The notes beneath the pieces are model-generated. The model did no database searches and was not told where the DNA came from. It saw only the letters and a program-made list of their open reading frames with translations. A stretch of DNA of 64,000 nucleotides from Prevotella sp. ne3005 (GTDB lineage Bacteria; Bacteroidota; Bacteroidia; Bacteroidales; Bacteroidaceae). Positions 47,234 through 54,208 of the stretch are shown here, piece after piece; positions within the stretch are counted from its first letter, which is position 1; the number at the start of each line of letters is the position of its first letter. The translations under genes and the position numbers were made by a program. The stretch spans positions 62,001 to 126,000 of the forward strand of contig NZ_FOCK01000008.1 of the NCBI RefSeq assembly GCF_900110085.1, read 5' to 3'.

Positions 47234-47848
47234 TTACTTGTTGATTATTACTGTTGAACCATTATAACCAGCGCAACTACCCTTCACGAGGATCAGGTTG
47301 TGCTCCGGTATTACCTTTAACACTTTGAGGTTCTGCGTGGTAACACGCTCGCCTCCCATCTGGCCGCCCATACGCATGCCCTTGAAGACCTTTGCGGGAT
47401 AAGAACAGGCACCGATAGAACCCGGCTTACGCAGACGGTCGTCCTGACCGTGAGTAGCCTGACCTACACCACCGAAACCATGACGCTTCACAACGCCCTG
47501 GAATCCCTTACCCTTTGACGTACCGACAACGTCAACGAACTCGACACCATCAAAGATGTCAACCGTTACGGTGTCGCCGAGATTCATCTCTGCGTCAAAC
47601 TTGAACTCGGCCAAGTGGGCCTTGGGTGTGGTGTTTGCCTTCTTGAAGATACCCATCATTGCTTTGGTGGTGTTCTTCTCCTTCTTCTCACCGAAGGCGA
47701 GCTGAACAGCCTTGTAGCCATCCTTCTCGACAGACTTCACCTGAGTCACAACACAAGGACCAGCTTCGATAACAGTGCACGGTACATTCTTACCGTCGGC
47801 ACTGAAAACGGATGTCATTCCGATTTTTCTTCCAATTAATCCTGGCAT
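47234..47848 (-). CDS. rplC: 50S ribosomal protein L3
   Basis: The 204 residues start [20 protein letters not shown] and hold the conserved [20 protein letters not shown]-like segment ([15 protein letters not shown]). It is the first gene of the S10 transcript here. Normally rpsJ is directly upstream, but here rpsJ is 6 kb away, so rplC has its own promoter (48034-48041) and a structured leader. Confidence 0.97.
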
Positions 47849-47886
47849 TTCAGTTTAATAATTAATAATGTTATATAAAAAAATTT

Positions 47887-47945
47887 GTTCCTTCTTAAGT
47901 GGTTTTCGCATTTCCAATCGCACACATACCCACTTAAAAAGGAAC
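47887..47945 (-). promoter_or_regulatory. rplC leader hairpin with U-tract: possible attenuator
   Basis: In the minus-strand RNA, GUUCCUUUUUAAGUGG (from 47945) pairs with CCACUUAAGAAGGAAC (to 47887) in a 16-bp stem with one G-U pair and a 27-nt loop. AAA and then seven U follow (about 47883-47877). This is the shape of an intrinsic terminator about 40 nt before the rplC start codon, so transcription of the whole S10-spc cluster may be controlled here. Confidence 0.65.
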
Positions 47946-48033
47946 CTCAACCGCTTCATTTTTGAAGGCTAAGTTGCTCTTTGTCAGGGTATTGATAGCT
48001 CTCGGGCCAGCGCAATACGCACTTTTGCGGGTG

Positions 48034-48041
48034 CAAAGGTA
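48034..48041 (-). promoter_or_regulatory. -7 element of the S10 operon (rplC)
   Basis: Minus strand TACCTTTG with a GTTG about 20 bp upstream (near 48062-48065). The leader to rplC is about 180 nt. Confidence 0.7.
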
Positions 48042-48212
48042 CTAATAATATGTGGAACACACAACATTTTTCACCCGCCCTACCCTAACTTTTAAGTTTT
48101 TTTATGATTTTAATTCTCCTTTCAGGCACAATCTTTCAAAAAGTTCCCATGCTGGGAACAAAATGTTCCCACGGTGGGAACTGTTTATTCCCAGCGTGGG
48201 AACTCTTAGTCA

Positions 48213-49400
48213 TCAACGGGCAACGATCACAGTTGGCGTATCGTGATAGCGCCCCACAACCGAGAGAACCTTCTGGGTCTTATAACGATAGAGACCAGAG
48301 AGCGTAGAGATGATAAGTTCATAGCTACGGCCTATCTCCAGCTGGTCGAGCGTGAGCAGCTGGTCATAGTCCTTGGCATCCTTGGGTTTGAACTCATAAA
48401 AGACGCTGTCGGGAATCAAGACGCCTTGCGGATCATCGAGGTTGATTGCAGTCGTAAAGGTCCCCTCTGGCGAGCTGATACCTGTAAACACAAAGTGGAC
48501 ATTCGTGCCGCAATAGGTGCGCAACAGTTCGAAGCTGGTGCTCAGGTGATCAACATCGTATACCATGATACAATGAAGTCCAGGCCACAGCTGCGCCACC
48601 ATCTGCGAGCCTATATGATGGGGCTCCATGATTTCCCTGATGGCGTTGGCGCGTTCTGGATCGGACTGGACGTAGGAATTGCCTCGCTCTATGTCGTCAG
48701 CCAGCCTGGGCCAGTGTTTCTCAATATAGCGCAACAGCTCGAGCATCTCTTCATAATGCTCACAGATGGCTATGGATATGTATTTCTGCTTCAGGGCATA
48801 GAGCGCCTGAAGGTAGCGGAAATTGGTTTCAAGGGAGTGTCTAGGGATCTCGACGGGTATGACATAGAGCTGATTGTGATCGAACTCACGTCTAATAAGC
48901 AGTCGTCCAAGCAGGTTCCCTTTGCACACGCCCGAGGGAAGCTGTTCGAGGTGGTTGTCAACCAGATTGAGCACCATGCCGTCGGTAAGCAACCCATGAT
49001 TGCCTGCGATATAGAACATGGCGCAGAAGTTGTAGTCGTTATACAATTGCACGCCCCATCTCGACTGGGGAAGAACCTTATAGCCGTGGTGCAGTGAGAG
49101 ATGCTCTGTCTGATAGGCAGTCAGGACGTTACGTTCGCCATTGACGATACGCTCGATATATTGGATATAGTCTTCATAGGTTGTCACATGTATGCGTTGC
49201 CTGTATTCTTCCATGCTGCGAATGAATTCAAAGCCATGATTGCGTCCGAATGCCGTCTTGGCATTCTCGCGAATGAGCCTCATGACGAATTCTTCCTGGC
49301 TCTGCATAGGATTAAAGGTGATGTCCTCCAGCCTGTTCCATACCGTCTGTCCATCTGCCCACCTTGCCTCGTTAATAGATTTTATGACCTTCTCGTCCAT
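48213..49400 (-). CDS. GH3 auxin-responsive-promoter-like protein, truncated and without nucleotide loop
   Basis: The 395-residue protein follows the bacterial GH3/adenylating-enzyme fold: FGRNHGFEFIRSMEEYRQRI, VTTYEDYIQYIERIVNGERN, and later VFYEFKPKD and ISTLSGLYRYKTQKVLSVVG. Where family members have the Ser/Gly/Thr nucleotide loop (about residue 100) it reads HLSLHHGYK. The frame stops just after the GLYRYK region, so the C-terminal lid domain (about 100 residues) is missing. Catalysis of acyl-adenylate formation is therefore doubtful. It lies 7 bp after the LD-carboxypeptidase-like gene and shares its promoter. Confidence 0.75.
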   Translation of the reverse strand: MDEKVIKSINEARWADGQTVWNRLEDITFNPMQSQEEFVMRLIRENAKTAFGRNHGFEFIRSMEEYRQRIHVTTYEDYIQYIERIVNGERNVLTAYQTEHLSLHHGYKVLPQSRWGVQLYNDYNFCAMFYIAGNHGLLTDGMVLNLVDNHLEQLPSGVCKGNLLGRLLIRREFDHNQLYVIPVEIPRHSLETNFRYLQALYALKQKYISIAICEHYEEMLELLRYIEKHWPRLADDIERGNSYVQSDPERANAIREIMEPHHIGSQMVAQLWPGLHCIMVYDVDHLSTSFELLRTYCGTNVHFVFTGISSPEGTFTTAINLDDPQGVLIPDSVFYEFKPKDAKDYDQLLTLDQLEIGRSYELIISTLSGLYRYKTQKVLSVVGRYHDTPTVIVAR

Positions 49401-49407
49401 GTATGTG

Positions 49408-50388
49408 TTATAGTTCTTTTTCCTTTATCAGTTTTGGGTTTGCGATATCCACATTATAGGGTTGTACGGAGCCTTTGATATTGAAACCCAGCATGGCGTT
49501 TTCGGTTGTCACATCCAGCGAGCAGGGGGCGCCCTCAATCAGCGGGATGCAACTATTGCTACCAACGGGGAAGCCACAACATACGGGAATCTCATATTGA
49601 TGCAGGTGTGCTATCAGCATTTGCTCGACACTGCCATACTGAAGATCGTACCTGATGGAGCTGAACGTGCCCAGGATGATGCCTCTCACTCTCTCAAAGT
49701 CGTGTTGCAGGGTCAGCATATAGAACAATCGGTCTATGTTGTGCAGCGATTCTTCCACCTCTTCTATAAATAGAATAATGTCTTGCTTAGGTGGGAGTTG
49801 GAATCTGGTTCCTGCCACAACGGCGTAGCTGGAGAGATTACCCCCTATAAGGATGCCCTCTGCATGTCCGCAACGGTTATAGGGATTGCCGGGAACAATG
49901 AATTGGGGCAGGTTGCCAAACAGGATGTTACGGGTGAGACTGCTTGCCGGCTCCTGACAGCTTGCTATCTGGAAGGCCATGGGGCCGTGGATACTCATCA
50001 GGCCTGCACCTGTCGCTGCATAAAGCAGCATGGCGATGTCACCATGACCAATCAGCCATTTCGGATGCTGAAGAAAGGTCTCTTGTGGGATACGGCCCAA
50101 CAGGTGAATGGAACCATAGCCGCCACGCGAACATATAACAGCTTTGATCGAATCGTCTTCGAGCGCCCAAAGCAAATCGGCGGCACGCTCGTCGGCCGTT
50201 CCTGCATAGGCATTGACATTAAGATTATTGGTGTTGGGTCCTATCACGGGTTGTAAGCCCCAACTCTTTATGACTTCAGCAGCCATCTGCAAGGCTTCTT
50301 GCGGCACCCAATAGGCAGGGGATACAAGGGCTACCTTGTCCCCCGCCTTTAAGTAGGGTGGCTGAATCATCTTTTTTCCTTGGTACAT
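49408..50388 (-). CDS. S66 LD-carboxypeptidase-like protein lacking catalytic Ser and His
   Basis: The 326-residue protein has all S66 landmarks: KAGDKVALVSPA, CSRGGYGSIHLL, a family-typical nucleophile elbow, GGNLSSYAVVAGT, ILFIEEVEESLHNIDRLFYM, and CGFPVGSNSCIPLIEGAP. The nucleophile position is Gly116 (IGHGDIAML; family IGYSDI or CGHSDF), and the His of the FPxGH motif is Ser277. Only the Glu (209) of the Ser-Glu-His triad remains. A peptidase activity is thus unlikely, and a binding or regulatory role is possible. Met7 (MIQPPYLK) may be the true start. Confidence 0.82.
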   Translation of the reverse strand: MYQGKKMIQPPYLKAGDKVALVSPAYWVPQEALQMAAEVIKSWGLQPVIGPNTNNLNVNAYAGTADERAADLLWALEDDSIKAVICSRGGYGSIHLLGRIPQETFLQHPKWLIGHGDIAMLLYAATGAGLMSIHGPMAFQIASCQEPASSLTRNILFGNLPQFIVPGNPYNRCGHAEGILIGGNLSSYAVVAGTRFQLPPKQDIILFIEEVEESLHNIDRLFYMLTLQHDFERVRGIILGTFSSIRYDLQYGSVEQMLIAHLHQYEIPVCCGFPVGSNSCIPLIEGAPCSLDVTTENAMLGFNIKGSVQPYNVDIANPKLIKEKEL

Positions 50389-50432
50389 ATTTTAATTGTT
50401 ATCTGTCTTGCTGATTGCGCTTTCTCGCCCTG

Positions 50433-50464
50433 CAAAAGTAGCATTTTTCTATGGATTTAGCAAG
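50433..50464 (-). promoter_or_regulatory. Promoter of the LD-carboxypeptidase-like/GH3-like operon
   Basis: Minus strand CTTG (50464-50461), 20 bp, TACTTTTG (50440-50433). The start point is near 50426, 38 nt before the ATG at 50388. Confidence 0.72.
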
Positions 50465-50481
50465 GGTTAATGCCTTGCAAC

Positions 50482-50545
50482 GGTACTTTTTGTAAATTCT
50501 GAGACTACTTTTGTAAATTCTGAGACTACTTTTGTAAATTCTGAG
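50482..50545. repeat. Three tandem copies of a 21-bp unit at the end of the AraC gene
   Basis: ACTACTTTTGTAAATTCTGAG occurs twice exactly (50504-50524, 50525-50545) and once nearly (50482-50503, one base longer). The minus-strand unit codes SQNLQK-stop, so the last codons and the stop of the 50526-51644 gene have been multiplied downstream. Confidence 0.8.
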
Positions 50546-51644
50546 AGTCGGATGCCGTCTGAAGCCTCATCCAGGTAGCAACAGTCTGCCCTTTGAACTG
50601 CTTAAAGGCTGTAGAAAAAGTGCTGTAACTGCGGAATCCGCACTGCTGAGCAAGCTGCACGGCTGTCATGGTTTGTGCCGAGTTCATTTTCTCATGATAG
50701 AGGCGGATAAAGTGTTCAATGCGCAAACGGTTAATATAGGTATTGTAAGTAAAGCCCTGTTGGACAAAATAGCCACCCAGATAGGTCCGATTAGTACCAA
50801 TAACTGTAGCAAGTTGCTGTAGGGTGAGGTCATGCTGCAGATAAAGCTGTTTGTCCTCGCAGCATGTTTTCAGCATTTGCTGGATGTTGACGGTTGTGGG
50901 CAGGCTCATAGATGGCTCATCAGCTTGACTGACATCTGACAACTTATCGTCAAGTTCCTGCAGTGTCTCGACGCGCCAGAGGAGGAAGGCGATGATGGCG
51001 AGCGTTTCCAGCTGTGCCAGATACTCTCTTGCCATCTCTCCCGGGTTCGTGAAATAGACCTCATAGACCACAAAAAGAGCGGCCACGAAAAGCAGACTCT
51101 GCCACACCTCCTTGTGTTCAAGGTCGGCGTAGTTCTCATGTAGCCAACGGCCGTACCGTATTAGTGCATGTATGTAATAGATGACAAAGACGATCATGAC
51201 AGCTATCTGCCAGTAAGTCGTCACCTCAAAGCCATAGAACTCGTCGTGCCTGATAACACCCACGGCAGCAGCAACGACGATTGGCAATTGAGCCAAGCCC
51301 CACGGCCAGAGAGGGCGCTTACGATCCTGCAACATATGCAGCAGAAGGGCCATCACAAGTGGCACAAGGGTGACATGGTCGAGCGTAACTGCCACGATAT
51401 TGCGCACCAAACGGTCGTCTGCCAGCCAATAGACGCCAAGCACATACCACCATACGTGGCTCAGTGCTGCCGTGATGAAGAAGGCAGCTGTCCATAGACG
51501 CAGCGCCATCGGGGGAGTAACATCTGGCGCAATGGCGTTGCTACGTCTTAGCCACAGATAGAGACCTATTGCCAAGGCCAATATGGCAACGCCGCCGTAG
51601 AGCATGAGAAAGAGGGTATCTTGAAGACTCTGTTGCGCGTACAT
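50526..51644 (-). CDS. Membrane-anchored AraC-type regulator
   Basis: The 372-residue protein has about seven hydrophobic segments (about 12-31, 48-70, 85-104, 113-131, 143-163, 184-200, 208-226), then a linker and a C-terminal AraC HTH domain (about 265-370) with two helix-turn-helix units (LQQLATVIGTNRTYLGGYFV and VQLAQQCGFRSYSTFSTAFK). The seven-helix part is a sensor of unknown ligand. It is 16 bp after the small AraC gene and probably shares its transcript. Confidence 0.85.
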   Translation of the reverse strand: MYAQQSLQDTLFLMLYGGVAILALAIGLYLWLRRSNAIAPDVTPPMALRLWTAAFFITAALSHVWWYVLGVYWLADDRLVRNIVAVTLDHVTLVPLVMALLLHMLQDRKRPLWPWGLAQLPIVVAAAVGVIRHDEFYGFEVTTYWQIAVMIVFVIYYIHALIRYGRWLHENYADLEHKEVWQSLLFVAALFVVYEVYFTNPGEMAREYLAQLETLAIIAFLLWRVETLQELDDKLSDVSQADEPSMSLPTTVNIQQMLKTCCEDKQLYLQHDLTLQQLATVIGTNRTYLGGYFVQQGFTYNTYINRLRIEHFIRLYHEKMNSAQTMTAVQLAQQCGFRSYSTFSTAFKQFKGQTVATWMRLQTASDSQNLQK

Positions 51645-51660
51645 TTATATTAATAGATTA

Positions 51661-52011
51661 TTATTCTTCGTCGGTGGCAGCAAGCCCGGAGCGGTATTCT
51701 GCTGGCGTGATGCCATAGCAACGCTTGAACTGCTCACGAAAGTTGGGAGCAGTAAGCCCCACCTCACGGGCTATCTCGGTAATACTCTTCTCCGGATGTT
51801 TGGTAAGCAGGTCGTAAGCGACCTCCATGCGGATGGAGTTAATGTATTGTGGAAAAGACATTCCATCGGCAAAGGTATTGAGCTGATCATTCAGATGATG
51901 ACGCCCAATATTAAAGCGCTGCATAATATCCTCACGCATTAGGTTGACTTGTGCGTAAAGACGTTCCTTGCGGATAACCGAATCGATGGTTTTAAATAGA
52001 TCTTTATCCAT
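51661..52011 (-). CDS. Stand-alone AraC-type DNA-binding domain
   Basis: The 116-residue protein is little more than an AraC HTH domain (ITEIAREVGLTAPNFREQFK, YGITPAEYR). It is closely related to the last ~110 residues of the 52132-53835 protein (both have FPQYxNxIRxE and ANLREQFKRKYG-like segments), so it probably arose by duplication of that domain without the TPR sensor. It has its own -7 element. Confidence 0.85.
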   Translation of the reverse strand: MDKDLFKTIDSVIRKERLYAQVNLMREDIMQRFNIGRHHLNDQLNTFADGMSFPQYINSIRMEVAYDLLTKHPEKSITEIAREVGLTAPNFREQFKRCYGITPAEYRSGLAATDEE

Positions 52012-52030
52012 TTGGTTGATATTTCATCTG

Positions 52031-52038
52031 CAAAGATA
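52031..52038 (-). promoter_or_regulatory. -7 element of the small AraC gene
   Basis: Minus strand TATCTTTG, 20 bp before the ATG at 52011; no good -33 was seen. Confidence 0.55.
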
Positions 52039-52069
52039 CTCATAATTTATGGGATTTTGATGAAAATAT

Positions 52070-52105
52070 ATGCACGCATTTGGTACGTGTCCCAAATGCG
52101 TGCAT
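52070..52105 (-). terminator. Terminator of the TPR-AraC gene
   Basis: ATGCACGCATTTGG (52070-52083) and CCAAATGCGTGCAT (52092-52105) form a perfect 14-bp stem with an 8-base loop, 27 bp after the stop at 52132; a TATATTTTC run follows on the minus strand. Confidence 0.8.
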
Positions 52106-52131
52106 CGGAAACGGGATAAACACCTCTTATC

Positions 52132-53835
52132 TTATAGATTCTGACGGTATTCAACAGGAGTCATACCATATTTACGTTTGAATTGTTCACGGAGGTTGGC
52201 AGGTGTGAAACCTACTTCGGTGGCGATGGCCGAGATAGTCTTAGCAGGTTCGTCGCGAAGCAGATATAGCGCCTTTTCCAGCCTGATTGTATTGACATAC
52301 TGCGGGAAGGACTGGCCGTCAGCGTGCTCCGCCAGCAAGTCGTTCAATGTATGTCGACTGATGTTGAAACGATCGCAGATATCCTGGCGCTGCAGGCCGA
52401 CATTGGCATAGAGGTGTTCATTACGGATAGCCGTGTCGATATGCTCAAAAAGCTCCGAATCGGCATCATTGACAGCACTCGAGTCGATGGGCTTTGGCTG
52501 CATGGCGTTAATCATGCGCACCAAGGCATGGTTCTTTTCACTGACAATACGCTTCTGACGGAAGAAGTAGATGGCAAAGGCGATAGCCAACAGAGCAACA
52601 AGAGCCACAGCGAGGCTAACGATGTGCGAACGCTCAGCCTCGGCTTCCTTCTCCCGAATCTCAAGTTGCTGTTCCTGGGCATGGTAGCGAGCGGCGTAAT
52701 CGTGTGCCTCACTTCGGTGCAGGCTATCACTGACCATCTTGGAGAGAGCAGCATAGCGCGTTTGGTAATCGTAGGCCTCCGCGATACGACCTTGGGCACG
52801 GGCAGCGATGGCACGTGAGCGGAGGATGACAGTATAGTTATTGTTGAATGTGTCAGCACCCAAGCGATGCTCTATCTCATTGTAGGTACTCAAAGCCTCA
52901 TCGTACATACCAAGTGCCATCTGCGTAGAAGTAATAAAGCGACGCGCTGCGAATGTCTGGCCGTAGCCGCTATGGTCGAAAAGCGACAGATACTCGCGGG
53001 CTTTCTCCCTTTCATTCATCAAGGCATACGCATGGGCCATGAATCCCCATGCCTGGGCACGGCTGAAGTCCAGATAACGATCGCGGTCACTAGGGCTATC
53101 GCTCCACGAAAGGCGATAGCTGTCCTCAGCATAGTCCTTGGCATGATGCTCATAGTGGTCGAGACGGTCGAGGATACGCTGCGCTAACGGGATAATTTCG
53201 TCGTAGCGCTCCAAGTCGTTGAGAGCATTAATCTTTCGTTTTACAGCAACGATGAACGCATCCATACGGTCAATACTGCCCGCGGCATCAAGATGACCTA
53301 TGGCCTCGTCGAGTTTCGCGATTCCTTCATCCACTTGTCCCAGATAGGTCATGACGAGTCCAATATCGGCCTCCGTGCGCCATTGCTCAGTCTCTTCTCC
53401 CTGTTTTTGGCAAAGTTCGGCCTTCTTCGTAGCCCAGCGCAGATACTGCTCGTCATCGTGCTTGGCACGACTAGCAGCGATGAGCATATCGAGAACCCCC
53501 TCTTGCTCACTAGGCTCATTACGCACGGAGTCGTGGAGAAGCAATGCCTTGCAGATGATGATGGCCGAGTCTTGGCGTTGCTCCATGAGTGACTTACTAT
53601 ATATCTTGGCGCGGATGAACTGACCACGGTAGTCGCTGATGTTTCCAAGGAGCAACGCCGAATCGAGCAGAGCGAGTGCCCGTTCAGGCTGGGTGGCATA
53701 AGTCACTAACACCGAATCAGCCTGGTAAGGCGTATCATCCAAGTGCGGCAAATGTCTCACAGACTTATCATCTCCACAACCCATGAAGGTCAGGAGTGCG
53801 CCACACGTGATAAGAAAAAGTACAATCTGTCGCAT
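52132..53835 (-). CDS. Lipobox TPR - transmembrane - AraC regulator
   Basis: The 567-residue protein has a lipoprotein-type leader (LTFMGCGDD, Cys20), TPR-like helices over about 35-380, and a transmembrane helix at about 404-425 (IVSLAVALVALLAIAFAIYF). A C-terminal AraC HTH domain follows (about 460-567, DICDRFNISRHTLNDLLAEH; ISAIATEVGFTPANLREQFK). It resembles one-component regulators of Bacteroidota. Its sequence stops 67 bp from rpsJ, with a terminator between. Confidence 0.84.
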   Translation of the reverse strand: MRQIVLFLITCGALLTFMGCGDDKSVRHLPHLDDTPYQADSVLVTYATQPERALALLDSALLLGNISDYRGQFIRAKIYSKSLMEQRQDSAIIICKALLLHDSVRNEPSEQEGVLDMLIAASRAKHDDEQYLRWATKKAELCQKQGEETEQWRTEADIGLVMTYLGQVDEGIAKLDEAIGHLDAAGSIDRMDAFIVAVKRKINALNDLERYDEIIPLAQRILDRLDHYEHHAKDYAEDSYRLSWSDSPSDRDRYLDFSRAQAWGFMAHAYALMNEREKAREYLSLFDHSGYGQTFAARRFITSTQMALGMYDEALSTYNEIEHRLGADTFNNNYTVILRSRAIAARAQGRIAEAYDYQTRYAALSKMVSDSLHRSEAHDYAARYHAQEQQLEIREKEAEAERSHIVSLAVALVALLAIAFAIYFFRQKRIVSEKNHALVRMINAMQPKPIDSSAVNDADSELFEHIDTAIRNEHLYANVGLQRQDICDRFNISRHTLNDLLAEHADGQSFPQYVNTIRLEKALYLLRDEPAKTISAIATEVGFTPANLREQFKRKYGMTPVEYRQNL

Positions 53836-53852
53836 AACGTATTTATCGAATA

Positions 53853-53879
53853 AAGCGACGCATCGGGGATACGTCGCTT
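53853..53879 (-). terminator. Terminator of the str operon (after rpsJ)
   Basis: On the minus strand an 8- to 11-bp stem (arms AAGCGACG and CGTCGCTT; extended by wobble pairs, loop about CCCCG) is followed by a T-rich run. It is about 25 bp after the rpsJ stop and ends str transcription before the inserted genes. Confidence 0.8.
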
Positions 53880-53902
53880 CATTATTGTCATCTGAGATAT
53901 TA

Positions 53903-54208
53903 CTATACCTTGATCTCTACCTCAACACCGCTGGGGAGCTCGAGCTTCATCAGGGCGTCAACAGTCTTAGCCGTTGAACTGTAGATGTCAATCAGACGCT
54001 TGTAGTCTGACAGCTGGAACTGCTCACGAGCCTTCTTGTTAACGAAGGTAGAACGGTTCACGGTGTAGATACGCTTGTGTGTGGGAAGGGGGATAGGACC
54101 GCTGATGATAGCACCTGTGGCCTTAACAGCCTTCACAATCTTCTCTGCTGACTTGTCAACCAATTTATGGTCGTAGCTCTTCAGCTTAATACGAATTTTC
54201 TGACTCAT
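53903..54208 (-). CDS. rpsJ: 30S ribosomal protein S10
   Basis: The 101 residues begin [20 protein letters not shown] and include [21 protein letters not shown]10 lies in the 30S head and also takes part in NusB-S10 antitermination. Here it ends the str operon instead of heading the S10 one, as rplC is 6 kb further on. Confidence 0.97.

Follow-up and report, generated by a model that had tools for sequence, protein, structure and literature searches.

A 64,000-nucleotide stretch of the genome of Prevotella sp. ne3005 (contig NZ_FOCK01000008.1, positions 62,001 to 126,000; hereafter the window) includes a gene for a protein with the fold of the S66 LD-carboxypeptidases in which two residues of the catalytic triad are replaced. 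The locus raises the question of whether such a protein is maintained by the cell and, if it is, for which role. The features considered in the analysis are collected in Table 1.

Table 1. Features of the locus in the window, ordered by coordinate
Feature	Coordinates	Strand	Basis or remark
Three palindromes, type GTTCCCAnnnTGGGAA(C)	48143..48203	-	Sequence; tandem, directly after the GH3-like gene
GH3-like (acyl-acid amido synthetase-like) protein, 395 aa	48213..49400	-	Pfam PF03321, PF23571
Predicted S66-fold pseudoenzyme, 326 aa, Gly116/Glu209/Ser277	49408..50388	-	Translation, Pfam, phmmer, alignment, model
TACTTTTG, putative Bacteroidetes-type -7 element	50433..50440	-	49 bp after the last TCAGAATTTACAAAA half-site
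Putative tandem operator, three head-to-tail TCAGAATTTACAAAA copies, 21-bp period	50488..50544	-	Pattern search and conservation
Membrane regulator of AraC type, 372 aa; HTH_18 preceded by five strong hydrophobic segments (seven by eye)	50526..51644	-	
Small AraC-type HTH protein, 116 aa	51661..52011	-	Pfam
AraC-type regulator, 567 aa; C-terminal HTH_18, one strong TM segment	52132..53835	-	

The sequence-only reading had described an intact frame of 326 residues that keeps the S66 landmarks, including the Glu of the triad, and in which the nucleophilic Ser and the catalytic His are Gly116 and Ser277. This description holds in all its parts. Minus-strand positions 49408-50388 translate into 326 aa and a stop, with IGHGDIA at residues 113-119, LFIEEVEE around Glu209 and GFPVGSN around Ser277. 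Both S66 Pfam domains are present (PF02016, 97.3 bits for a cut-off of 25 bits; PF17676, 84.7 bits for a cut-off of 23.7 bits) and, when the protein was compared by phmmer with solved structures, chains of PA5198 LdcA were among the best matches. Gly116 aligns with the Ser that is Ala in entry 2aum, and Ser277 takes the place of the 1zrs His for which 2aun has Ala; the titles of 2aum and 2aun name them as the Ser115Ala and His285Ala active-site mutants of LD-carboxypeptidase. These local alignments stop at, or adjoin, the active-site residue concerned, and the multiple alignment concurs with both placements. The nucleophilic Ser (Ser115 in PA5198) and the catalytic His (His285 in PA5198) are found in 0 of the 70 members of the clade described below, and Glu209 is E in 69 of these 70 and D in one. 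The AlphaFold model of the protein (pLDDT 88.1, obtained with an alignment of 27 sequences as input) superposes on LdcA/MccF chains at Z 26.7-36.2, the next row having a Z of 6.1; the two domains and this structural match place the protein in the S66 (LdcA/MccF) fold. At the level of sequence and model, we regard as confirmed that the predicted protein is a full-length S66 fold with Ser and His replaced and Glu209 retained. Some residual or altered catalysis may be possible, given that His115, beside the lost Ser, is found in 69/70 clade members.

To place the replacements among relatives, one genome per species was scanned. The scan yielded 215 relatives, and the best 80 were used as loci; as they are the best 80 of 215, the fraction 67/80 reported here is not a prevalence. 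G[HY]GD replaces G[FY]SD in 67 of these best 80 loci of 215 relatives, and the remaining 13 of the best 80, at 45-49% identity, have intact GFSD and G-H motifs. Gly stands at position 116 in all 67 clade loci among the best 80 of 215 relatives (one of them, L099, ends before position 277), and assembly error or chance is thereby ruled out. The record titles of the 67 clade loci read Prevotella, Prevotellaceae or Bacteroidales, and every host mentioned in them is a ruminant (goat, buffalo, yak, sheep, deer, reindeer). A clade member is also present in a cultured rumen isolate, Prevotella sp. MA2016 (record L087).

A wider set was then aligned, consisting of the best 80 loci and further loci from genus and family genomes. 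Alignments shorter than about 270 residues were left out, as were duplicate proteins (13 of loci L032-L097 being merged with others on that account), which gave 126 distinct full-length proteins. Ser116 is absent in 70 of the 126 (69 Gly, 1 Asp), and not one of these 70 has His277; both residues are present in 56 of the 126, and there are no intermediates. Within the clade, position 115 is His in 69/70 and Tyr in 1/70, position 277 is Ser in 65/70 and Gly, Asn or Arg in 5/70, and position 278 is Asn in 65/70 and Asp in 5/70. According to the alignment, the loop past 277 is one residue shorter in the clade than in the intact proteins. On a quick maximum-likelihood tree with a midpoint root, comprising 95 rows (39 of the 70 clade members, 31 being left out, and all 56 intact proteins), the triad label switches once, with an SH-aLRT support of 100. 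One contig labelled Fibrobacter (L109) carries an S66 gene almost identical to the Bacteroidales gene of L106, and its label is a probable case of binning contamination.

With respect to selection, the median Nei-Gojobori dN/dS was 0.117 in the clade (82 of 2415 pairs) versus 0.128 in the intact group (37 of 1540 pairs) after filtering at 0.1<dS<1.2. All clade pairs of the window protein exceed a dS of 1.2, which places it outside these medians; its nearest pair has a dN of 0.119 and a dS of 1.29. Purifying selection on the clade is as strong as on its intact relatives. The two groups share the same residue, at 95% conservation or more in each, at 46 positions of the alignment, and five positions that are at least 95% conserved in the intact group are retained by less than half of the clade: S116, D197, G229, H277 and N280, the last of which adjoins an alignment gap. 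The clade can be read as having lost catalysis selectively, with the rest of the protein still under constraint. The sequence-only reading had taken the gene as a maintained protein and not debris, and had proposed to look for recurrence of the replacements in a clade and to calculate dN/dS. Recurrence was found (Ser116 lost in 70/126, all 70 without His277, in one clade), the dN/dS values agree with it, and maintenance is strongly supported by the clade-wide trait, by the clade median and by an operator and promoter conserved in many loci.

Carriage by mobile elements was considered as well. It was rejected: no relative was found in viral contigs, and 94 plasmid records match, all of them at less than 60% identity, with the top-ranked one at 37%.

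The genome that carries the window has, elsewhere, one other S66 gene, 39% identical and with its motifs intact, as well as a single GH3 gene of full length (about 500 aa). The old chemistry is therefore covered, and the disabled copies are thus extra paralogues. Among 200 genus genomes, a full-length clade S66 gene is found in 17, each best match having been checked at residue level.

The second disabled copy is the GH3-like gene, which starts 7 bp past the S66 gene. Its motifs were compared with those of the full-length GH3 protein of the same genome, the motif definitions being those given in PMC12493201. The GH3-like protein has 395-399 aa in 26/26 loci versus about 500 for the full-length enzyme, so that the C-terminal domain is absent. 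Nucleotide motif I (SSGTxxGxxK), which reads SSGTTNDKSKF in the full-length GH3, is missing from 27/27 proteins (window plus 26 loci). In motif II ((Y)xxSE), YNASEG of the full-length enzyme aligns with ISSPEG; the Ser is Pro or Ala in 27/27 and the Glu is retained in 22/27. For motif III (GLYRYRLGD), GLYRY is retained in 26/27 and the GD end is lost in 27/27. According to PMC12493201, OlsH activity was abolished by S115A (motif I), and the S293A mutant (motif II) was still active. Because the motif II Ser-to-Ala change left OlsH active in that account, it is motif I and the missing domain alone that argue strongly for inactivity, and on their reading the neighbour is a predicted degenerate enzyme. 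The structural model of this protein is of low confidence (pLDDT 60.9), too low for structural comparison.

The GH3-like gene lies near the S66 gene in 26 of the 67 clade loci among the best 80 of 215 relatives, and in 0 of the 13 intact loci; as 41 of those 67 (again from the best 80 of 215) are without it, a fixed two-protein complex is not required. The order of the two genes is reversed in L037 and L041. In the 200 genus genomes the GH3-like type (at least 63% identity) occurs in 6, always directly beside a clade S66 gene. Two side observations concern this gene. The GTTCCCAnnnTGGGAA(C) palindromes that follow it precede a TAnnTTTG-type box upstream of rplC, and may be a terminator or a binding site. 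In another genome (G305, L161:2382-9300), a 693-aa protein has an N-terminal part that is glycosyltransferase-like by eye and a C-terminal GH3-like part that ends soon after GLYRYKT, like the window protein; its gene is followed by two frames, NRPS-like by eye, and a truncated GH3 may here have found another use.

On the other side of the S66 gene there are three AraC-type genes, the minus-strand order in the window being rpsJ, the three AraC-type genes, S66, GH3-like and rplC. The N-terminal multi-TM domain of the 372-aa protein has no Pfam match; the 567-aa protein has an N-terminal hydrophobic, lipoprotein-like segment, and its TPR matches are weak and sub-threshold. The whole AraC/S66/GH3 block sits between rpsJ and rplC of the S10 ribosomal cluster (window 47234-54208). 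Insertion into this cluster was considered as a general explanation of the locus and rejected, because just 5 of the 67 clade loci from the best 80 of 215 relatives (L072, L075, L080, L081 and L083) have rpsJ, fusA, rplC or rplD close to the clade gene, many loci being short.

Neighbours were found by clustering adjacent frames in the best 80 loci of 215 relatives. Within that set a soluble/TPR AraC gene accompanies 38 of the 67 clade loci and a membrane AraC gene, divergent in some loci, 36 of the 67; either is found in 0/13 intact loci. A further small protein family is present in 16 loci; two members were scanned with Pfam, one of which gave a sub-threshold HATPase match (E 0.19) and the other none. 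The membrane AraC family has two close members in the 3.57 Mb of the window's own genome. A paralogue of the membrane AraC protein in that genome (L185, C6:62098), 45% identical, has a 21-bp tandem repeat of a diverged half-site upstream, which suggests that operators diverge within this regulator family.

Just upstream of the S66 gene there are tandem copies of TCAGAATTTACAAAA, at 50488-50502, 50509-50523 and 50530-50544, the last of them within the 3′ end of the 372-aa AraC gene. The Bacteroidetes-type -7 consensus is TAnnTTTG, and a box of this type follows the copies. With at most 3 mismatches, the window holds 5 TCAGAATTTACAAAA-type sites versus a shuffle mean of 1.88, and 5 of 100 shuffles reach 5. 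As this count is only modestly above that of shuffles, the weight rests on the exact tandem copies and on their conservation. A tandem repeat with a 20- or 21-bp period is found in 30 of the 67 clade loci among the best 80 of 215 relatives, in 0/13 intact loci and in none of three mononucleotide shuffles; two matches of 22-bp period in L072 were left out of the count, and some operators among the remaining 37 may be hidden by contig ends or by the limit on mismatches. In 21 of the 30 loci the nearest gene behind the operator is S66; in 3 it encodes a membrane AraC protein, in 2 a soluble one, and in 4 it is another small gene.

TAnnTTTG follows the last half-site at a distance of 39, 49-50, 59-60, 69-70 or 81-82 bp in 32/32 sites (the window, the 30 loci and L160, with the last site per locus), and all 31 segments from outside the window have the box, for an expectation of 1.39 from shuffles. 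The mean resultant length of these distances at 10.5 bp is 0.935. For the five distance classes alone, which were set after the data had been seen, the chance of such phasing is 0.0013; the 32 distances are not independent, because the loci are related. The spacing is best described as helical phasing. Direct half-sites, a two-turn period and phasing to the promoter are those of an AraC-type operator, and there is strong sequence evidence, from loci that are related, for operator and box as a candidate working activator site.

As to the protein that would act there, the exact 18-base operator pattern was searched in the 200 genus genomes; it gave 20 rows, spread over 17 genomes, and its reverse gave 2. 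Ten of the 19 distinct pattern sites have a member of the membrane AraC family no more than about 1.5 kb away; six of these ten are clade S66 loci, and four are without an S66 gene in the stretch. Nine of the 19 have no membrane AraC gene nearby, five of them being AT-rich, chance-like strings. In the window's own genome, with two close family members in 3.57 Mb, a random site would rarely be as near. This adjacency, the rarity of the family in that genome and the paralogue's own repeat make the membrane AraC protein, from its genomic position, the candidate owner to which we assign the operator.

Some further operator copies are placed elsewhere. The only other operator cluster of the window's own genome (L160:4356-6500, C19) stands 49 bp from a box, one low-complexity match with 3 mismatches being left out and the reversed control giving 1. 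The gene behind it encodes a 663-aa TPR, membrane, histidine-kinase-like protein with a HisKA match just below the cut-off and a HATPase_c match above it. In L167, L168 and L180 there are operator copies without an adjacent membrane AraC gene; the one in L167 precedes a DUF4421 gene and, by eye, the genes near those of L168 and L180 are PAP2-like and secreted, hinting at an envelope regulon.

The loss of Ser and His, a second disabled enzyme often beside it and a DNA switch nearby make it probable that the protein binds or senses and does not cut. The sequence-only reading had suggested that it could bind a peptidoglycan peptide or the GH3-like neighbour; it had missed the degeneracy of this neighbour, the AraC genes and the phased operator. 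These features shift the likely role of the protein from that of an isolated binder to that of a regulated pseudoenzyme module. The explanation that we favour, with moderate confidence, is that of a maintained S66 pseudoenzyme that binds instead of cutting, under the operator of the membrane AraC protein and with the pseudo-GH3 protein as a partner where present. An envelope cue would act on the membrane AraC-type protein, which would bind the tandem operator and switch on the S66 unit. The pseudo-S66 protein would retain the old substrate pocket, for a peptidoglycan stem peptide or an amino-acyl/peptidyl-nucleotide, and would be a cytoplasmic binding or sensing subunit that reports or sequesters the former substrate or product; its ligand is probably amino-acyl or peptidyl. 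The pseudo-GH3 protein, whose ancestor would have joined amino acids to acyl groups, would work with it where present. A bolder form of this idea, possible and doubtful when taken as a whole, would be a new sensing device in which a disabled amide hydrolase and a disabled amide synthetase together read a ligand in the cytoplasm, are coupled to the membrane AraC protein through the phased operator and, in some genomes, have a small HATPase-like protein as a third module.

The main rival reading makes the dead S66 protein a regulatory subunit that pairs with an intact S66 paralogue of the same cell and tunes it. S66 enzymes are dimers, an intact copy lies within a few kb of the dead one in L040, L047 and L039, and an S66 match of the lower-identity band is found in 12/17 genomes with a dead copy versus 49/183 others (Fisher p 4e-4, from a hand count uncorrected for kinship, the triads of the matches not having been checked one by one). 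The partners, however, are just 35-46% identical to the window protein, 5 of the 17 dead-copy genomes have no full-length partner (most of these assemblies being incomplete) and, in the window's own genome, the intact copy is on another contig; we hold such a heterodimer to be unlikely. That the protein could instead be a new enzyme, in which His115 and Ser277 have in effect swapped places and support new chemistry together with Glu209, would agree with the near fixation of the three residues (69/70, 65/70 and 69/70), but position 277 is Gly, Asn or Arg in five of the 70 proteins, position 115 is Tyr in one and the loop past 277 is shortened by one residue. Because position 277 varies, we keep the swapped triad as a rival only, and one of distinctly low probability.

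The best structural matches of the model, MccF-like chains at Z 29.7-36.2, would suit an immunity or decoy protein that sequesters microcin C-type peptidyl-nucleotide antibiotics without cleavage, as would an antibiotic-responsive switch. Nevertheless, LdcA-type chains are nearly as close (Z 26.7-34.4), no McC-type biosynthesis gene was found among the 10 window genes scanned with Pfam, and the viral and plasmid comparisons given above (no viral-contig relative, 94 plasmid matches all below 60% identity) do not favour a decoy, to which we give a slight chance. Broken or partial pieces of the clade do exist (G157, G170, G199 and G173) and would be expected of a relaxed, decaying paralogue without function; against them stand 70 distinct full-length frames, a low dN/dS and a conserved phased operator. 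Decay of the S66 gene is contradicted by the 67/67 clade loci among the best 80 of 215 relatives and by dN/dS, and we give it next to no credence.

The favoured reading, a regulated S66 protein that binds and does not cut, can be set beside several known systems. AraC-type activators bind tandem direct half-sites about 21 bp apart, and the locus has in common with them the 20/21 repeat period and the helical phasing to the promoter; it differs in the N-terminal multi-TM domain of the 372-aa protein, which matches no Pfam family. With LdcA (P. aeruginosa PA5198, E. coli LdcA) the window protein has in common the fold, both S66 domains, the catalytic Glu and the RGGYG segment, whereas the Ser and His of the triad are replaced clade-wide. 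MccF, the S66 protein of microcin C self-immunity, represents the chains with the highest structural Z (up to 36.2), but the window protein has neither Ser nor His and lacks a McC-type gene among the 10 window genes scanned. In the open-licence literature we found no description of an S66 pseudoenzyme, and nothing relevant on comparable AraC operators, whether of Prevotella or of transmembrane AraC proteins. The inactive LytM factors have another fold and an envelope location, unlike the S66 pseudoenzyme, and we know of no link between them and an AraC operator. They are likewise dead relatives of peptidoglycan peptidases kept as regulators, and regulate cell-wall hydrolases, according to PMC8416486. 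With GH3 synthetases (OlsH, PMC12493201; plant JAR1/GH3.11) the GH3-like protein has in common the N-terminal and central domains and GLYRY of motif III, but it is without motif I and the C-terminal domain, and its motif II Ser is replaced.

These results bear on how Prevotella proteins are named, as "LD-carboxypeptidase" names given from domain matches alone may cover non-peptidases. If the favoured explanation is true, rumen Prevotella would have a conserved locus in which two enzyme folds have become binding proteins, with the operator already mapped and a candidate for its regulator. One could then test directly what these pseudoenzymes sense, and whether they serve Prevotella to monitor its peptidoglycan or its amino-acyl pool.
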